This document shows positions 56,895-64,000 of a stretch of DNA of 64,000 nucleotides, in pieces. Both the position numbers and the translations under genes were made by a program. Each line of letters begins with the position of its first letter. Positions within the stretch are counted from its first letter, which is position 1. This stretch comes from Butyrivibrio sp. YAB3001 (GTDB lineage: Bacteria > Bacillota > Clostridia > Lachnospirales > Lachnospiraceae). The notes beneath the pieces were generated by a model. The model had not been told where the DNA came from and did no database searches. It was given only the letters and a program-made list of their open reading frames with translations. The DNA is taken from the NCBI RefSeq assembly GCF_900112195.1, contig NZ_FOKR01000002.1, positions 218,134 to 282,133 of the forward strand, written 5' to 3'.

Positions 56895-57497
56895 CTAGTT
56901 ATCGCTTGTATCATCATAATAACTTGAAGTATCCTGTATGCCAAGTCTTTTTTCTGCCTCTCTGACTTTCTTTTCTCTTTCTTTTAAGTCCTGTTCCCAA
57001 GAAGCATATCTGTTTGTGACATTACTTTTATAATTTAAAATATTATCACTTTCGCTATTTAGATTAATAACAAACATCAAAACAACAAGGAGTATCAGGA
57101 ATACATTCAACACAATCGGGAAAATGATTTTAAACTGAGCATTATTCTTTTCCGGCTTAATTCTTTGTTTAACATTTAAATTTTCAAGTGCAGAATGTCT
57201 GGTAAAAGACACTTCCATTGGCAAAGGCAATACATCATCTTCGCTCATTCCGGCAGATAGAAGTCTATTTCGTAAATCCATCAAAAACATCCAGCCTACG
57301 GGCGTTTTGAAAATCTTGTTCTCAATAGCCTTCTCATAAACCGCCTTCACATCGCCAACCTTATTGATATTAATTCTGGACTTCAGCAGCTTCACTTTAG
57401 ATGCATCAAGAACCGCTTTTTGAGCATCTGTTTCAGAAGTAAATTGAATTCCATCAACTATTAATTTATCAACTTCTTCTATATTATCGGTTGCCAT
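56895..57497 (-). CDS. unrecognised single-span membrane protein
   Basis: A 200-residue protein I do not recognise. Residues 1-115 are soluble with a segment KTPVGWMFLMDLRNRLL and a predicted helical character. One membrane helix lies at about 122-145, and the C-terminal 50 residues are a charged coiled coil (DLKEREKKVREAEKRL) ending in D/S/Y-rich sequence. The ATG at 57497 follows GGAG and overlaps the end of glgX by 14 bases, so it is translated from the same mRNA. Its place between glgX and a two-component system suggests a link to one of them, but no function can be assigned. Confidence 0.7.
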   Translation of the reverse strand: MATDNIEEVDKLIVDGIQFTSETDAQKAVLDASKVKLLKSRININKVGDVKAVYEKAIENKIFKTPVGWMFLMDLRNRLLSAGMSEDDVLPLPMEVSFTRHSALENLNVKQRIKPEKNNAQFKIIFPIVLNVFLILLVVLMFVINLNSESDNILNYKSNVTNRYASWEQDLKEREKKVREAEKRLGIQDTSSYYDDTSDN

Positions 57498-59664
57498 ATT
57501 CAGCTCCAAAAGATGCTATGAATACACTTACACTTCTTGCTTTTAACGTTTTATTTCTCCAGGTAAGTGGCTTTGGTCTGTTAAGGAAATATTTACCCTC
57601 GTCATCACCTGTATCAACGCACAAAGACCAATAAGCGCCATTTGGAGGATTCGGAAGCATAATCTGAACATCCTCCCAAAATGCATTTATGGCCATATAA
57701 ACAATGTCATCATGCCCTTTCTTTTTCTCGTAGCCGGCATAACGAACGCAAATAACCTTCGAATCATTTGTAATATTTCCATTATCTGGATTTTCAGTGT
57801 GAACTGAAATATACGGAAGGCCGCAAACTGCCGGGCTTAAATCCTTTCTAATAGCCGGATGTTTTCTTCTAAACTGGATCATATGTCTGTAAAACTCAAA
57901 AAATGCCTTATTCTTCGTTAGCAGATTCCAATTCAGCCAGGAAATCTCATTATCCTGGCAATAAGCATTATTATTACCGAACTGAGTATTTCCAAACTCA
58001 TCACCGGCATATATCATAGGCGTGCCTCTGCTGCACATAAGGACAGTAATGGCATTTCTCATCATCCTGAATCGAAGATCTTTTATTTCAGGATTATCAG
58101 TCTCACCTTCTGCGCCACAGTTCCAGCTTCTGTTATCATTTGCTCCATCTGTGTTATTCCAGCCATTGTCTTCATTGTGCTTGCCATTATAGGAATAAAG
58201 ATCATATAAGGTAAAACCATCATGGCATGTGATGAAATTGACAGATGAATCATATCCCATATAGGAGCCGCCATACATATCCATTGAACCTGTAATTCTC
58301 TTAATTGCTTCAGGCGCAGCCCAGATGTCGCCTTTAAGATAAGACCTTAAGTCATCACGATATTTGCCATTCCACTCAGCCCATCTCTTCCAGGCAGGGA
58401 AATTACCAACCTGATATACTCCGCCGGCGTCCCATGCCTCAGCAATAAGCTTAACGTTTCCAAGAATCGGATCATAAGCAAGCCTCTGTATAAGAGGGGG
58501 CTTTTCCATTGGCGCACCATCCTGATCTCTGCCAAGGATGCTTGCAAGATCAAATCTAAAACCATCAACTCGATATTCTTCAACCCAATATCTCAGACAC
58601 TCAACGATAAGTTCCTGAACCATAGGGTGATTACAGTTCATTGTATTTCCGCACCCACTAAAGTTATAATACTGTCCATGCGGTGTTAAAAGATAATAAA
58701 TATTGTTGTCAAATCCTTTAAAAGAGATAAAAGGACCATGTTCATTTCCTTCTGCAGTATGATTGAAAACTACATCAAGAATAACTTCTATACCGTTATC
58801 CTTAAGTGTTTTTATCATATGTTTGAGCTCAACGCCCTCTTTATTGTATTCTGTCTGTGAAGCATAACTTGTATTTGGCGCAAAAAAGCTTATTGTATTA
58901 TATCCCCAATAATCAAGAAGCACTTTTCCGTTTACTTCACGCTTATCTCTTGTTTCATCAAACTCAAAAATAGGCATAAGTTCAACTGCACTAATTCCAA
59001 GTCTTTTCAGATAATCTGCTTTTTCCTTTATTCCTTCAAAAGTTCCCCTGCATGTTACATTAGAAGATTCATCCATTGTGAACCCTCTTACATGCATTTC
59101 ATATATAACTGAATCGCTCATTGGCGTTCCAAGGCTGGTTGTATCATTCCACTCAAAATTATCCCTCACAACCCTTGCTCTGTACTGACCGTCCTTGTTA
59201 GGTCTTTGTCCCCAAATTCTCTGTCCGGTCACAGCCTTTGCATATGGATCAAGAAGGACATGATTTTTATCGAAAAGAAGCCCTTTTTCCGGTTCCCATG
59301 GTCCATCAACACTATAGCAGTACTCAAGGTCTTCGATATCCAGACCAAATACTATCATAGAGTAAACTTTACCAATCTTATATGTCTCAGGAAACGGAAT
59401 CTGTCCGAATGGCTTGGATTCACCTCTATGATAAAGAAGAAGTGTTATGGATGTTGCTCCATTGGAATAAACAGTAAAGTTTACACCGTCGGTAAGCATA
59501 GTAGCCCCATTGATTCCATAGAATCCGGGCCTTACCCTGAATCCGTCAATTACATCCAGAGCCAAAAGCTGCCTGTTAAGGTCACTTTTTCTAAGTTCCC
59601 TTACCTGCCTCTCTCCTACCTCAACTGGTTTTCTGTTTTGTCTATGTCTTCTATATTCGTTCAT
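57484..59664 (-). CDS. glgX: glycogen debranching enzyme (GH13)
   Basis: A 726-residue GH13 enzyme with an N-terminal CBM48-like domain (residues about 50-150). Catalytic blocks: DVVFNHT, DGFRFDLAS with the nucleophile Asp, IAEAWD with the acid Glu, and FITCHDGFTL with the stabilising Asp. The length and block pattern match GlgX/isoamylase-type debranching enzymes acting on alpha-1,6 branches of glycogen in the cytoplasm. No signal peptide. No strong ribosome site precedes the ATG. Confidence 0.93.
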   Translation of the reverse strand: MNEYRRHRQNRKPVEVGERQVRELRKSDLNRQLLALDVIDGFRVRPGFYGINGATMLTDGVNFTVYSNGATSITLLLYHRGESKPFGQIPFPETYKIGKVYSMIVFGLDIEDLEYCYSVDGPWEPEKGLLFDKNHVLLDPYAKAVTGQRIWGQRPNKDGQYRARVVRDNFEWNDTTSLGTPMSDSVIYEMHVRGFTMDESSNVTCRGTFEGIKEKADYLKRLGISAVELMPIFEFDETRDKREVNGKVLLDYWGYNTISFFAPNTSYASQTEYNKEGVELKHMIKTLKDNGIEVILDVVFNHTAEGNEHGPFISFKGFDNNIYYLLTPHGQYYNFSGCGNTMNCNHPMVQELIVECLRYWVEEYRVDGFRFDLASILGRDQDGAPMEKPPLIQRLAYDPILGNVKLIAEAWDAGGVYQVGNFPAWKRWAEWNGKYRDDLRSYLKGDIWAAPEAIKRITGSMDMYGGSYMGYDSSVNFITCHDGFTLYDLYSYNGKHNEDNGWNNTDGANDNRSWNCGAEGETDNPEIKDLRFRMMRNAITVLMCSRGTPMIYAGDEFGNTQFGNNNAYCQDNEISWLNWNLLTKNKAFFEFYRHMIQFRRKHPAIRKDLSPAVCGLPYISVHTENPDNGNITNDSKVICVRYAGYEKKKGHDDIVYMAINAFWEDVQIMLPNPPNGAYWSLCVDTGDDEGKYFLNRPKPLTWRNKTLKARSVSVFIASFGAEYGNR

Positions 59665-59763: not shown

Positions 59764-61176
59764 TTATACAGGATATGCACCATTCTTAGAATCAGCTGCT
59801 GACATATCAACTGATGTCTGCTGTGCCATACGATATTTGAAGAAATCCGTAGCAACCTGTGGGAATAATGCGTATGAAAGTGTATCTTCATCCTGCTGTT
59901 TCCACTGGGCAACTTCCTTCTCAAACTTAGGAAGTCCTGGCTCAAGTTTATCAGCAGGTCTGCAAGTAATAACTTCTCTGTCGCCGATAATCTTCTTCTG
60001 AACTTCCGGATTGAAAGGCTTAATTGTCTTACCATATTCACCGGCAAGAAGGTCCTTAGTCTGGTCAGTTGCAACTTTGTATCTTTCACCCATAAGAACG
60101 TTCATAACAGCCTGTGTACCAACAATCTGTGATGAAGGTGTAACAAGAGGTGGCTCACCAAAGTCTTTTCTAACCTGTGGAATCTCTTCAAGCACTGTGT
60201 TGTACTTGTCGCTTGCATTCTGCTCTTTAAGCTGGCTAACCATATTTGAAAGCATACCGCCTGGAACCTGATACATAAGAGTCTTGATATTAACACCAAG
60301 AACCTTAGCATCCATAAGTCCGCTCTTAAGGCATTCTTCTCTATATGGTCTGAAGTGATCTGCAATCTGAGCAAGAAGCTTCTGATCAAGTCCAGTCTCG
60401 AAAGGCTGTCCCTTAAATGCTTCAACCATAACTTCTGTAGCAGGCTGAGATGTTCCAAGTGCGAATGGAGAAATTGCGCAGTCGATGATATCAACTCCTG
60501 CCTCAGCTGCCTTAAGGTATGTCATGCTGGCAACACCTGAAGTATAGTGTGTATGAAGGTCAATAGGAAGGCTTGTAGCGCTCTTAAGAGCCTTAACGAG
60601 CTTCTCTGCCTCATAAGGAAGAAGAAGTCCTGCCATATCCTTGATACAGATTGAATCTGCACCCATTGACTCGATATCTTTAGCAATGTTCATCCAATAC
60701 TCTTCTGTATATGCATCACCAAGAGTATAAGCAAGAGCTATCTGTGCATGACCACCCTCTTTTTTACAAGCCTTAACAGAAGCCTCAAGGTTTCTAAGGT
60801 CGTTCAAGCAGTCGAAAATTCTGATGATGTCAATACCATTAGCGATAGACTTCTGAACAAAGTACTCAACTACGTCATCAGGATAATGCTTATATCCAAG
60901 AATATTCTGTCCACGAAGAAGCATCTGGAGCTTAGTATTCTTAAATCCTGCTCTAAGTTTTCTAAGTCTCTCCCATGGATCTTCCTTAAGGAATCTCATG
61001 CATGCATCAAATGTTGCGCCACCCCAGCATTCTACTGCATTATAGCCAACCTTATCCATTGTATCGATAATAGGCAACATAACTTCAGTAGGCATTCTTG
61101 TAGCTATAAGTGACTGGTGCGCATCACGGAGTACAGTCTCATTGATACGAACCGGCTTTTTCTGTAAATCTGCCAT
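59764..61176 (-). CDS. oadA: oxaloacetate decarboxylase alpha / transcarboxylase 5S-like subunit
   Basis: A 470-residue carboxyltransferase. The N-terminal HMGL-like barrel has VLRDAHQSL with metal-binding Asp, ECWGGATFD, IRIFDCLNDLRN and IDLHTHYTSG. The biotin-carrier domain found at the C-terminus of many OadA proteins is absent, and a separate carrier is encoded at 62438-62797. It transfers carboxyl groups between oxaloacetate/pyruvate and biotin. It is the last gene of the Na+-pump operon. Confidence 0.93.
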   Translation of the reverse strand: MADLQKKPVRINETVLRDAHQSLIATRMPTEVMLPIIDTMDKVGYNAVECWGGATFDACMRFLKEDPWERLRKLRAGFKNTKLQMLLRGQNILGYKHYPDDVVEYFVQKSIANGIDIIRIFDCLNDLRNLEASVKACKKEGGHAQIALAYTLGDAYTEEYWMNIAKDIESMGADSICIKDMAGLLLPYEAEKLVKALKSATSLPIDLHTHYTSGVASMTYLKAAEAGVDIIDCAISPFALGTSQPATEVMVEAFKGQPFETGLDQKLLAQIADHFRPYREECLKSGLMDAKVLGVNIKTLMYQVPGGMLSNMVSQLKEQNASDKYNTVLEEIPQVRKDFGEPPLVTPSSQIVGTQAVMNVLMGERYKVATDQTKDLLAGEYGKTIKPFNPEVQKKIIGDREVITCRPADKLEPGLPKFEKEVAQWKQQDEDTLSYALFPQVATDFFKYRMAQQTSVDMSAADSKNGAYPV

Positions 61177-61240
61177 ATCTATATTTCCTTTCTATAGTTA
61201 GATAATACGATCAAATTTAAATTTTTAATGTATAAAAATC

Positions 61241-62383
61241 TTATACACCAAATACTGCCATAAATGTACCAGCAACAACGGCTGTACCAATAACTCCGGC
61301 AACATTAGGTCCCATAGCATGCATTAACAGGAAGTTTGATGGATCATATTCAGCACCAACCTTCTGTGATACACGTGCAGCCATAGGAACAGCAGATACA
61401 CCAGCTGAGCCGATAAGAGGATTGATCTTACCACCTGTTATCAGGCACAACAGCTTACCAAGAAGACATCCTGCAGCAGTACCAAACGCAAATGCAATAA
61501 GTCCGAGAACAACAATGATAATAGTTGTCTTATTAAGGAAAGCTTCTGCACTTGTTGTAGCTCCTACTGATGTTCCAAGAAGGATAACTACGATATACAT
61601 AAGAGCATTTGAAGCTGTCTCCTGCAGCTGACGAACAACGCCAGATTCTCTGAACAGGTTACCAAGCATAAGCATACCAATAAGTGGTGCTGTAGTAGGA
61701 AGAATCATACTTACTACGATAGTAACGATTACAGGGAAAAGAATCTTTTCAAGCTTAGAAACTTCTCTAAGCTGCTGCATTCTGATTTTTCTCTCTCTGT
61801 CTGTAGTAAGAGCCTTCATAATAGGAGGCTGAATCATAGGAACCAAAGCCATATATGAATATGCAGCAACAGCAATAGGTCCTAAGATAGATGTCTGATG
61901 CAGCTTGGATGCAAGGAAAATTGATGTAGGGCCATCTGCACCACCAATGATGGATACAGCAGCAGCCTGCTGATCATTAAATCCAAAAGCAATAGCCATA
62001 AAGTAAGCTGCAAAGATACCAAACTGAGCTCCGGCACCCATAAGGAAACTTATAGGATTCGCAATAAGCGGACCAAAGTCTGTCATAGCTCCAACACCAA
62101 GGAAAATAAGTGACGGAAGAATTGCCCATTCATCCAAAATATAGAAATAATGCAAAAGTCCTCCGGCAGCACTTCCTGTAGGTTCTGCCATAATATCCGG
62201 ATAAATATTTACAAGAAGCATACCAAATGAAATTGGTACTAAAAGCAAAGGCTCAAATCCCTTGGCAATAGCCAGATACAAGAACACCAATGCAACACCG
62301 ATCATAACATAGTTACCCGGTGACATCGTGGTAAATGCCGTCTGATGCCAGAGATTAGATAATGTATTAACAATGTAATCCAT
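61241..62383 (-). CDS. oadB: Na+-pumping decarboxylase beta subunit
   Basis: A 380-residue membrane protein with ten to eleven hydrophobic segments. The family segments GIGALTDFGPL-like (VGAMTDFGPLIANP) and GAADGPTSIF-like (GGADGPTSIF) carry the aspartates used in Na+ translocation and carboxybiotin decarboxylation. It couples decarboxylation to Na+ export. GAGG precedes the ATG. Confidence 0.95.
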   Translation of the reverse strand: MDYIVNTLSNLWHQTAFTTMSPGNYVMIGVALVFLYLAIAKGFEPLLLVPISFGMLLVNIYPDIMAEPTGSAAGGLLHYFYILDEWAILPSLIFLGVGAMTDFGPLIANPISFLMGAGAQFGIFAAYFMAIAFGFNDQQAAAVSIIGGADGPTSIFLASKLHQTSILGPIAVAAYSYMALVPMIQPPIMKALTTDRERKIRMQQLREVSKLEKILFPVIVTIVVSMILPTTAPLIGMLMLGNLFRESGVVRQLQETASNALMYIVVILLGTSVGATTSAEAFLNKTTIIIVVLGLIAFAFGTAAGCLLGKLLCLITGGKINPLIGSAGVSAVPMAARVSQKVGAEYDPSNFLLMHAMGPNVAGVIGTAVVAGTFMAVFGV

Positions 62384-62437
62384 TTTTTATCCTCATTTCT
62401 GTTTTAAAGTAAAAACCAACTATTCTCTGACACAAAA

Positions 62438-62797
62438 TTAGTTAAGAGTAGCAAGGCATGTTCCAGCCTCAACAGCATCACCTGCAGCAACATCGATACT
62501 TGCAACAGTTCCGTCTGAAGGAGCTACCATAGGGATCTCCATCTTCATAGATTCAATAGTTACAACTGTGTCGCCCTTCTTAACAGCCTGACCAACACTT
62601 GCATTGATCTTAAGAACCTTTCCGGCAGCACCAGCCTCAACCTTGATTGAGCCGGCACCAGCACTTGCCTTCTTTGCAGGTGCAGCAGGTGCCTTAGGTG
62701 CAGGAGCTGCAGCAACAGGAGCAACTCCTGATCCAGCGCCCTCTTCTACAGTTACATCATATACGTTTCCGTTAACGGTTATTGTATAGTTCTTCAT
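62438..62797 (-). CDS. gcdC: biotin carrier protein of decarboxylase/transcarboxylase
   Basis: A 119-residue biotin carrier. After a 20-residue N-terminal part comes an A/P-rich hinge, then a biotinyl domain with ESMKMEIPM, whose lysine is biotinylated. It shuttles the carboxyl group between carboxyltransferases and the OadB pump. Two adjacent ATGs (62797 and 62800) follow GGAG; 62797 gives better spacing. Confidence 0.95.
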   Translation of the reverse strand: MKNYTITVNGNVYDVTVEEGAGSGVAPVAAAPAPKAPAAPAKKASAGAGSIKVEAGAAGKVLKINASVGQAVKKGDTVVTIESMKMEIPMVAPSDGTVASIDVAAGDAVEAGTCLATLN

Positions 62798-62845
62798 CAT
62801 ATCTCCTTTCGATGAGCAAGGTTATCTCCGTGCTCGATCTCATAT

Positions 62846-63673
62846 TTAGTGTTTTTTCCAATTATTATTTACTTTTCTTATAGATCTTACACGGAATCCG
62901 TCAGTACTGCCGCTTCCTTCATATGCTGCAATAGCAGCTGCAATTACAGCTACAAGTTCTGCATCGCTGGAAAGATCTTCTTGTGTGGCAATCTGATTGA
63001 TTGTGTTCTCCATTGCCTTCTGAGTGATTTCCTTATCACTCTCTTTCTTTTTCTTATTACCACCAATAAGTATTGGGAATAAAGAAATAATAAGCGAAAT
63101 GATTACAAGAATTGAAAATGCCATTCCCATTCCTAAAAGTGTATTAAGACCGGCATTCTCAAGTTTCTCACCTGTTGTCTTAGCTACTGTAACACCGATA
63201 TCAGTAGGTTCTCCTCTATTGGAGAGATAGATCATCATATCAGCTGTATGCTTTGTTCCCTGCAAAACTGCATCAACTACAAGCACACCTTCTTTATTAA
63301 CCTCATATGAAATATCCTTGACACTGATATCATCTGCCAAAGTCACTTCTGTGTTATAGCCAAGATCTTTTACAGCCTTATACCAGCTTGTATATCCGCT
63401 CTTAAGCACATCATATCTCTCGTCAGAAGTGCTCATGGCAATATCAAAATACAAGTTCTGTTCAAAGTTATCCGGAGTGATACCATCAAGATACCATGCT
63501 TCAAAATTATTATCTTCCAAAGCTTCCGCATAACCCCTCAGGCTATCGTATGTAAATATATCAGACGAATACCTGCTTCCTTCAACAGTGTTGACAGTTG
63601 TCTGTTCACCGCATGCAGTAAGTCCGAGAAGGCAGCTAAGCATAACGCCCAAAACCAACATTTTTCGTTTCAT
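62846..63673 (-). CDS. oadG: lipoprotein-OadG fusion, gamma subunit of Na+ decarboxylase
   Basis: A 275-residue protein in two parts. The N-terminus is a lipoprotein signal ending in LTAC-G, followed by an extracellular domain of about 140 residues resembling DUF3887-type domains. The C-terminal part has one membrane helix (about 175-200) and a basic, glycine-poor cytoplasmic end typical of OadG. Normal OadG is about 80-120 residues, so this is an expanded form. The ATG at 63673 follows GGGAG; an earlier start at 63694 would overlap the mmdA stop. Confidence 0.8.
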   Translation of the reverse strand: MKRKMLVLGVMLSCLLGLTACGEQTTVNTVEGSRYSSDIFTYDSLRGYAEALEDNNFEAWYLDGITPDNFEQNLYFDIAMSTSDERYDVLKSGYTSWYKAVKDLGYNTEVTLADDISVKDISYEVNKEGVLVVDAVLQGTKHTADMMIYLSNRGEPTDIGVTVAKTTGEKLENAGLNTLLGMGMAFSILVIISLIISLFPILIGGNKKKKESDKEITQKAMENTINQIATQEDLSSDAELVAVIAAAIAAYEGSGSTDGFRVRSIRKVNNNWKKH

Positions 63674-63690
63674 TTTGAGTGCTCCCTTCA

Positions 63691-64000
63691 TCAAACTGTG
63701 CCGTGTTTCTTTGCAGGACGCTCATCCCTTTTTGTAAAAAGCATCTCGAATGCGCCAATTACATACTTTCTGGTATCTGCCGGCTCAATAATTTCATCGA
63801 CATAACCTCTTCCAGCTGCACTCTTAACATTATTCTGAAGAGCTGCGTACTCATTTGCTGTCTGATTAACATCAGCATCCTTGCCATCGCAAAGAATTTT
63901 GGCTGCAAGCTTAGCATCCATAGTACCGATCTGAGCATCTGGCCAGCTTATAGTAACATCAGCGCCGATTGCCTTTGAATTCATAACAACATATGCACTT
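63691..64000 (-). CDS. mmdA: carboxyltransferase beta subunit, MmdA type (partial)
   Basis: Only the C-terminal 102 residues are in the window; the gene extends past the right edge, and the reading frame is open to position 64000 (SAYVVMNSKAIGAD). The VVMNSKAIGADVTISWPDA block and the C-terminal RKYVIGAFEMLFTKRDERPAKK... segment are typical of the acyl-CoA carboxyltransferase family (methylmalonyl-CoA decarboxylase alpha, propionyl-CoA carboxylase beta, transcarboxylase 12S). It lies upstream of oadG and shares the operon with the biotin carrier, OadB and OadA. Confidence 0.88.
   Translation of the reverse strand, partial: SAYVVMNSKAIGADVTISWPDAQIGTMDAKLAAKILCDGKDADVNQTANEYAALQNNVKSAAGRGYVDEIIEPADTRKYVIGAFEMLFTKRDERPAKKHGTV

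Follow-up and report, generated by a model that had tools for sequence, protein, structure and literature searches.

The locus considered here raises the question of what a gene set that resembles a transcarboxylase joined to a sodium pump does in its host. It lies at the end of a 64,000-nucleotide stretch of Butyrivibrio sp. YAB3001 (contig NZ_FOKR01000002.1, positions 218,134 to 282,133; hereafter the window), where five genes follow one another in the order mmdA-oadG-bccp-oadB-oadA on the minus strand. The first-pass annotation had proposed that a single biotin carrier could serve two carboxyltransferases, MmdA and OadA, so that acyl-CoA and oxaloacetate carboxyl transfer would both be linked to Na+ export. 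For this organism we lean towards another answer: a Na+-coupled oxaloacetate decarboxylase whose biotin carrier is detached, with a 12S-like MmdA that derives from a carboxyltransferase forming malonyl-CoA and probably has a structural role today. The features are as follows, in window coordinates.

63691..64000, minus strand: mmdA, altered 12S-like carboxyltransferase subunit; 3' end only, the window edge cutting the gene.
62846..63694, minus strand: oadG, 282 amino acids (aa), with OAD_gamma only at residues 179-259.
62438..62800, minus strand: bccp, separate biotin carrier (1.3S/MmdC-like), with Biotin_lipoyl and an ESMKMEI motif.
61241..62383, minus strand: oadB, Na+-translocating decarboxylase beta subunit; OAD_beta E 1e-150, TIGR01109 474.7 bits (cut-off 190.6).
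59764..61176, minus strand: oadA, oxaloacetate carboxyltransferase (5S-like), 470 aa; PYC_OADA and HMGL-like, NF008985 746.1 bits (cut-off 718).

Family matches for each gene bore out the five-part set with OadB and OadG, and gene by gene the parts correspond to those of transcarboxylase plus a Na+ pump. OadA could be aligned to the pyruvate carboxylase beta subunit, the OadA of Na+ pumps and the transcarboxylase 5S subunit, and its LRDAHQS, IKDMAG and HxH motifs were aligned to 2nx9; OadB keeps GGADGPT and MGPNVAGVIG in alignment to the solved OadB 6iva. We take all of these motifs to be catalytic sites. The family search gave no Biotin_lipoyl match in OadA, so that the carrier domain is not fused to it, and the separate carrier aligns to the transcarboxylase 1.3S subunit. 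Judged from these families, OadA would transfer a carboxyl group from oxaloacetate to the carrier, from which OadB and OadG would set CO2 free while exporting Na+. A second OAD_beta match, beyond the oadB of the operon, is present in the window genome. The mmdA gene that had been annotated is present, but only its final 102 codons (63691-63999) lie inside the window. The complete gene was taken from the same contig, which runs about 570 kb past the window end (L005 9691-11214, corresponding to window 63691-65214; Carboxyl_trans E 2.3e-106); the full-length product is an atypical MmdA, scoring 398.9 bits to TIGR01117 against a cut-off of 998.8. The carrier, like MmdA, scores under the NCBIfam cut-offs.

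The predicted fold of the window MmdA is that of the propionyl-CoA carboxylase beta and 12S subunits (TM-score 0.84-0.86 by query length; mean predicted local distance difference test, pLDDT, 74.3). It reads IDSTGLRLQEG where solved relatives show forms such as NDSGGARIQEG, GSAYVVMNSK where they show GGAYIAMGSK or similar, and IGTMDAKLA where they show IAVMGPEGA or similar; two of the changed motifs sit in poorly predicted loops (100-105 and 137-143). MmdA proteins were compared at 188 reference positions, those that never vary among 22 stand-alone MmdA (near an OadB and without OadA), whose own high scores arise by construction. The loci included an OadB sample of 60 across the phylum, picked among the matches listed, of which 25 have an mmdA of this type, and an OadA sample of 60 across the class, picked among the matches listed with the OadA of a canonical operon as query, from which the 16 without mmdA were dropped; two GCD-type mmdA (L185, L217) were excluded by a score limit. 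Two non-overlapping classes were obtained, canonical MmdA keeping 162-188 of the 188 positions and altered MmdA 74-133, with a boundary that was fixed after the distribution was known. The window MmdA keeps 101 and does not retain the canonical motifs of 12S acyl-CoA carboxyltransferases; the 27 Butyrivibrio loci keep 98-107 and the 80 named loci 94-107. In the reduced set of 90, every altered MmdA (35/35) was linked to OadA, as were 32 of the 55 canonical ones.

The other subunits changed far less. Half of the canonical OadA-linked loci were used to define positions, and the fractions of these kept in held-out canonical versus altered loci were 0.982 and 0.568 for MmdA, 0.990 and 0.957 for OadA, 0.983 and 0.897 for OadB, and 0.980 and 0.850 for the carrier, and we therefore conclude that the change is concentrated in MmdA. 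A carefully built OadA tree with 65 rows, from which L275 and L276 were left off as long branches, needs about 6 changes to account for the altered state, and branches with good support force at least 5 of them; a quick tree with 67 rows needed 9 changes, at least 4 of them forced. Within Butyrivibrio, mmdA is under purifying selection and not decaying, the ratio of nonsynonymous to synonymous substitution rates (dN/dS) being 0.007-0.10 in ten pairs versus 0-0.06 for oadA and oadB.

The gene content of the window genome bears on whether MmdA could still serve fatty acid synthesis. Its fatty acid cluster reads ACP-FabK-FabD-FabG-FabF-AccB-FabZ-AccC-AccD-AccA, and the Carboxyl_trans matches in the genome fell on the operon MmdA, on an AccD/AccA pair and on both halves of a fused AccDA. 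Because AccB, AccC, AccD and AccA stand in the fatty acid cluster and a fused AccDA lies elsewhere, formation of malonyl-CoA by the window MmdA is unlikely; together with the altered state of MmdA, this leaves no support for the working acyl-CoA arm that had been proposed for this organism. The fused AccDA (537 aa; G000:C43:222384-225827, L003) lies at a separate site from the main fatty acid cluster, where a FabD-like gene and an aminotransferase-like frame adjoin it, and seems to be a second carboxylase that serves a special product.

We surveyed 80 genomes for mutase and AccD (32 canonical and 26 altered OadA-linked, and 22 stand-alone), and 80 for AccC and FabF, with the window genome replacing one stand-alone genome; eight of the 67 OadA-linked rows (L052, L073, L094, L101, L102, L131, L136 and L150) are outside this tally. 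The limits, 500 bits for AccC (TIGR00514), 300 bits for AccD and the family cut-off for FabF, were chosen after the lists were known. FabF exceeded its cut-off in all 32 canonical genomes and AccD reached at least 300 bits in two (G434 and G316); among the 30 with FabF and without AccD, 29 had no TIGR00514 match of at least 500 bits. Matches above that limit were found in G434 and, within a 1154-aa frame of pyruvate carboxylase size, in G473, and the weak best AccC-type matches of the other canonical genomes lay mostly in frames of about 1070 aa, which would fit the size of carbamoyl-phosphate synthase. In the stretch fetched, the fatty acid clusters of eight canonical genomes (L286-L293) have no acc gene. 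Because FabF is present and AccD and biotin carboxylase are absent in most of these genomes, canonical MmdA is probably their source of malonyl-CoA. In the simplest scheme, the carboxyl group would come from oxaloacetate via OadA and the carrier, or from CO2 via a reversed OadB where one is present. The notion of one carrier serving two carboxyltransferases, although not supported for the window organism, is the simplest account of the canonical relatives, 30 of 32 having FabF without AccD and 30 of 32 having no AccC-type match of at least 500 bits.

Three stand-alone genomes with canonical MmdA (G187, G203 and G194) had no good FabF match, which would be expected if their MmdA has a different function. 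Others, such as G094 and G288, have canonical MmdA and OadB with no OadA nearby, together with mutase and FabF and no strong AccD or AccC match, and their MmdA may make malonyl-CoA too. That such gene sets form malonyl-CoA is already proposed in print, which supports our reading of the canonical sets and limits its novelty. As described in the available sections of the source, deletion of fapR in C. bescii raised a unit called malonyl-CoA biosynthesis together with the fatty acid genes, the unit being annotated as methylmalonyl-CoA carboxyl transferase, hypothetical protein, carrier and oxaloacetate decarboxylase (PMC7071700). C. thermocellum is reported, in the part of the account available, to be without the standard carboxylase and to have a putative malonyl-CoA-forming transcarboxylase (PMC5414155), and an evolutionary study of biotin carboxylases, in its accessible portion, put transcarboxylase-like homologues aside (PMC3199775).

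In the 27 altered genomes, window included, AccD and FabF were both present in 20 and both missing in seven (G356, G323, G388, G404, G513, G349 and G396). The absence of FabF from these seven was predicted before the FabF search and then borne out; G396 gave two weak FabF matches (best 26 bits) in a 395-aa frame, and the G349 genome is 84% complete. Over the 59 genomes in which mmdA is linked to oadA, MmdA class and AccD/FabF content were associated with a Fisher p of 8e-15, a value that ignores kinship.

In the fatty acid clusters of seven genomes (L278-L284), AccD and AccA accompany the fab genes, and the stretch fetched contains neither AccB nor AccC. The seven are six altered genomes, G005 and G025 (Butyrivibrio, by kinship to the window), G262, G046, G310 and G407, plus G316, whose MmdA is canonical and, at 164/188, the least complete among the OadA-linked canonical proteins. 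Genome-wide, their AccC-type matches were only weak, and in all seven the operon carrier was the sole strong Biotin_lipoyl match, the others scoring below 27 bits or, in a 451-aa frame of G310, 41.5 bits. The genomes are 94-100% complete, except that of G407, the absences in which weigh less because it is 80% complete. Since there is no strong AccC and no other strong carrier match, their AccD and AccA could hardly be charged except through the operon. Of the 62 butyrivibrio draft genomes surveyed by Hackmann and Firkins, only 36 to 61 are reported to have acetyl-CoA carboxylase subunits, whereas oxaloacetate decarboxylase is predicted in all 62 (PMC4478896). The available text gives no reason for this patchiness, and charging of AccD and AccA by the operon would account for it. 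We put forward, as a tentative proposal at somewhat less than even chances, that lipid synthesis depends on this complex in many Clostridia, with oxaloacetate rather than ATP and bicarbonate giving the carboxyl group of malonyl-CoA, that in the seven genomes (two of them Butyrivibrio) AccD and AccA are charged by the carrier of the Na+ pump to make an acetyl-CoA carboxylase without biotin carboxylase, and that MmdA turned scaffold several times. The accessible portions of the open-licence literature gave no account of OadA feeding an acetyl-CoA carboxylase that lacks AccC, nor of MmdA having changed repeatedly.

For the window lineage, the favored account starts from an MmdA ancestor that was a carboxyltransferase; judging from gene content, canonical MmdA in relatives without an acetyl-CoA carboxylase would put the carboxyl group taken from oxaloacetate into malonyl-CoA for fatty acids. 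In the window lineage AccD and AccA would form malonyl-CoA instead. The active-site motifs of MmdA have changed, and the present protein would no longer take the carboxyl group, serving most likely as a structural core that joins OadA and the carrier. In transcarboxylase, the 12S hexamer holds the parts together.

Several points weigh against this account. The scaffold role is one that we infer by analogy with the 12S hexamer. A kinship-aware paired test, with five independent pairs on supported branches, gave a mean of 3.7 in the same direction, none opposite, and a median p of 0.125, which is suggestive and not significant by itself. AccD is present in two canonical genomes, G434 and G316; G434 combines canonical MmdA with AccC-AccB-AccC-AccD-AccA, and the 20 FabF-type matches of this genome, many of which fall in 1300-5900-aa frames, suggest that its carboxylase may be there for polyketides. 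A FapR-type operator (at least 10 of 12 half-site letters) was found upstream of mmdA in 4 of 32 canonical OadA-linked, 1 of 35 altered and 1 of 23 OadA-free loci, and so has no general support. Oxaloacetate decarboxylase activity was not detected in wild-type C. thermocellum, according to the available part of that account (PMC5414155). Finally, the altered motifs (GLR, GS replacing GG, and MNSK) are rather constant within Lachnospirales, as they would be with a new substrate too.

This last point, together with the purifying selection on mmdA and the N-domain GG that the window protein retains, speaks for an alternative that we nonetheless consider unlikely, in which MmdA works as a carboxyltransferase on a new substrate and the complex still couples two carboxyl transfers to Na+ export. 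Altered lineages outside the order of the window differ from one another at the same glycine motifs, and several are without the N-domain GG; moreover, every altered genome with FabF has AccD, and no candidate pathway was found. It is quite unlikely that the pump works mainly in reverse, the Na+ gradient driving carboxylation of the carrier by OadB and OadA forming oxaloacetate from pyruvate in place of pyruvate carboxylase. The operon OadA is the single PYC_OADA protein in the window genome, which therefore has no pyruvate carboxylase, and oxaloacetate decarboxylase is named by Hackmann and Firkins, in the sections available, as worth investigating for oxaloacetate supply (PMC4478896); however, the genome has an ATP-type phosphoenolpyruvate carboxykinase that could supply oxaloacetate, and OadB is absent from 15 of the 67 OadA-linked loci. 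Very improbable is the form first annotated, a methylmalonyl-CoA/oxaloacetate transcarboxylase joined to the Na+ pump and active as such in the window organism: although the gene content fits part by part and methylmalonyl-CoA mutase occurs in two canonical five-gene genomes of another class (G218 and G242), MmdA is altered, and no mutase was found in the window genome, by a search that was positive in 8 of 14 control genomes, or in any of 56 OadA-linked genomes ranging from the same genus to the same class. A check for mutase genes had been suggested along with that annotation, and for want of one methylmalonyl-CoA is rejected as substrate or partner in the window genome; mutase is present in both OadA-linked genomes outside the class and in 18 of the 22 stand-alone genomes.

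The expanded OadG that had been noted was confirmed, yet the long form is usual in relatives: among the 79 OadG found in the 80 named loci, 73 are 236-321 aa and six are 111-206 aa, one of the short ones (L132) sitting at a contig end. The N-terminus is a lipoprotein-type signal with a Cys invariant in 15 of 15 aligned sequences, the likely ATG being at 63671-63673. The predicted structure consists of helices and four strands (pLDDT mostly about 90), followed by a 27-residue helix that would fit a membrane span; the extracytoplasmic fold had no match in the PDB at E <= 0.001, with weak NTF2-like matches only. This part (window 62849-63670) evolves faster than the other subunits, dN/dS for oadG being 0.06-0.36 in the ten Butyrivibrio pairs, and is missing in 2 of 27 congeners.

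As an arrangement, the operon is ordinary; its interest is as a metabolic and evolutionary case. The idea that it is unique was rejected, since it is common in relatives: the five genes occur in the same order in 27 of 27 fetched loci of the genus, with OadG short in two, and in other families of the order mmdA and oadA occur together in such a set at 8 of the 13 loci. All five genes are found in 67 of the 80 named loci, mostly Lachnospiraceae; the other 13 lack the full set because the sequence ends too soon, at most 2.9 kb after mmdA. The nearest named relatives are Butyrivibrio, the MmdA being 87-89% identical to those of strains M55, AE2015, Su6 and INlla21 in a comparison from which the window's own record may be excluded. 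An isoamylase/GlgX-type gene (57484-59664) lies immediately downstream of oadA on the same strand.

If our proposal holds, one biotin carrier would be common to the sodium gradient, the oxaloacetate node and membrane lipid synthesis in many bacteria of gut and rumen, and MmdA would be an enzyme subunit that was repeatedly replaced and retained as structure. Metabolic models would then be misled by automatic annotation that gives these MmdA names such as methylmalonyl-CoA decarboxylase.

Among known systems, the operon shares with the transcarboxylase of Propionibacterium (methylmalonyl-CoA:pyruvate carboxyltransferase) the 12S-, 5S- and 1.3S-like parts, including a 5S-type protein without carrier domain and a separate carrier; the likeness extends to the predicted fold of MmdA and to alignment of OadA with 5S over its length and of the carrier with 1.3S. 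Unlike that enzyme, it adds the membrane subunits OadB and OadG, its MmdA site is altered and its genome has no mutase. With the Na+-translocating oxaloacetate decarboxylase (OadABG), it has in common the OadA carboxyltransferase, OadB and the OAD_gamma domain, with metal-site and OadB motifs kept, but its carrier is a separate protein, MmdA is extra and OadG has an extracytoplasmic domain. The order mmdA, oadG, carrier, oadB is that of stand-alone sets of the Na+-translocating methylmalonyl-CoA decarboxylase (MmdABCD-type), which has an OadB/MmdB-type beta subunit as well; the window operon differs in adding OadA and in the low NCBIfam scores of MmdA and the carrier. The putative C. thermocellum transcarboxylase and the FapR-controlled unit of C. 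bescii resemble it, by annotation only, in their set of MmdA-, carrier- and OadA-like proteins (PMC7071700, available part), whereas no OadB stands in the C. bescii table of that source, and altered MmdA and AccC-less genomes are not treated in the accessible sections of the two accounts (PMC5414155, PMC7071700).

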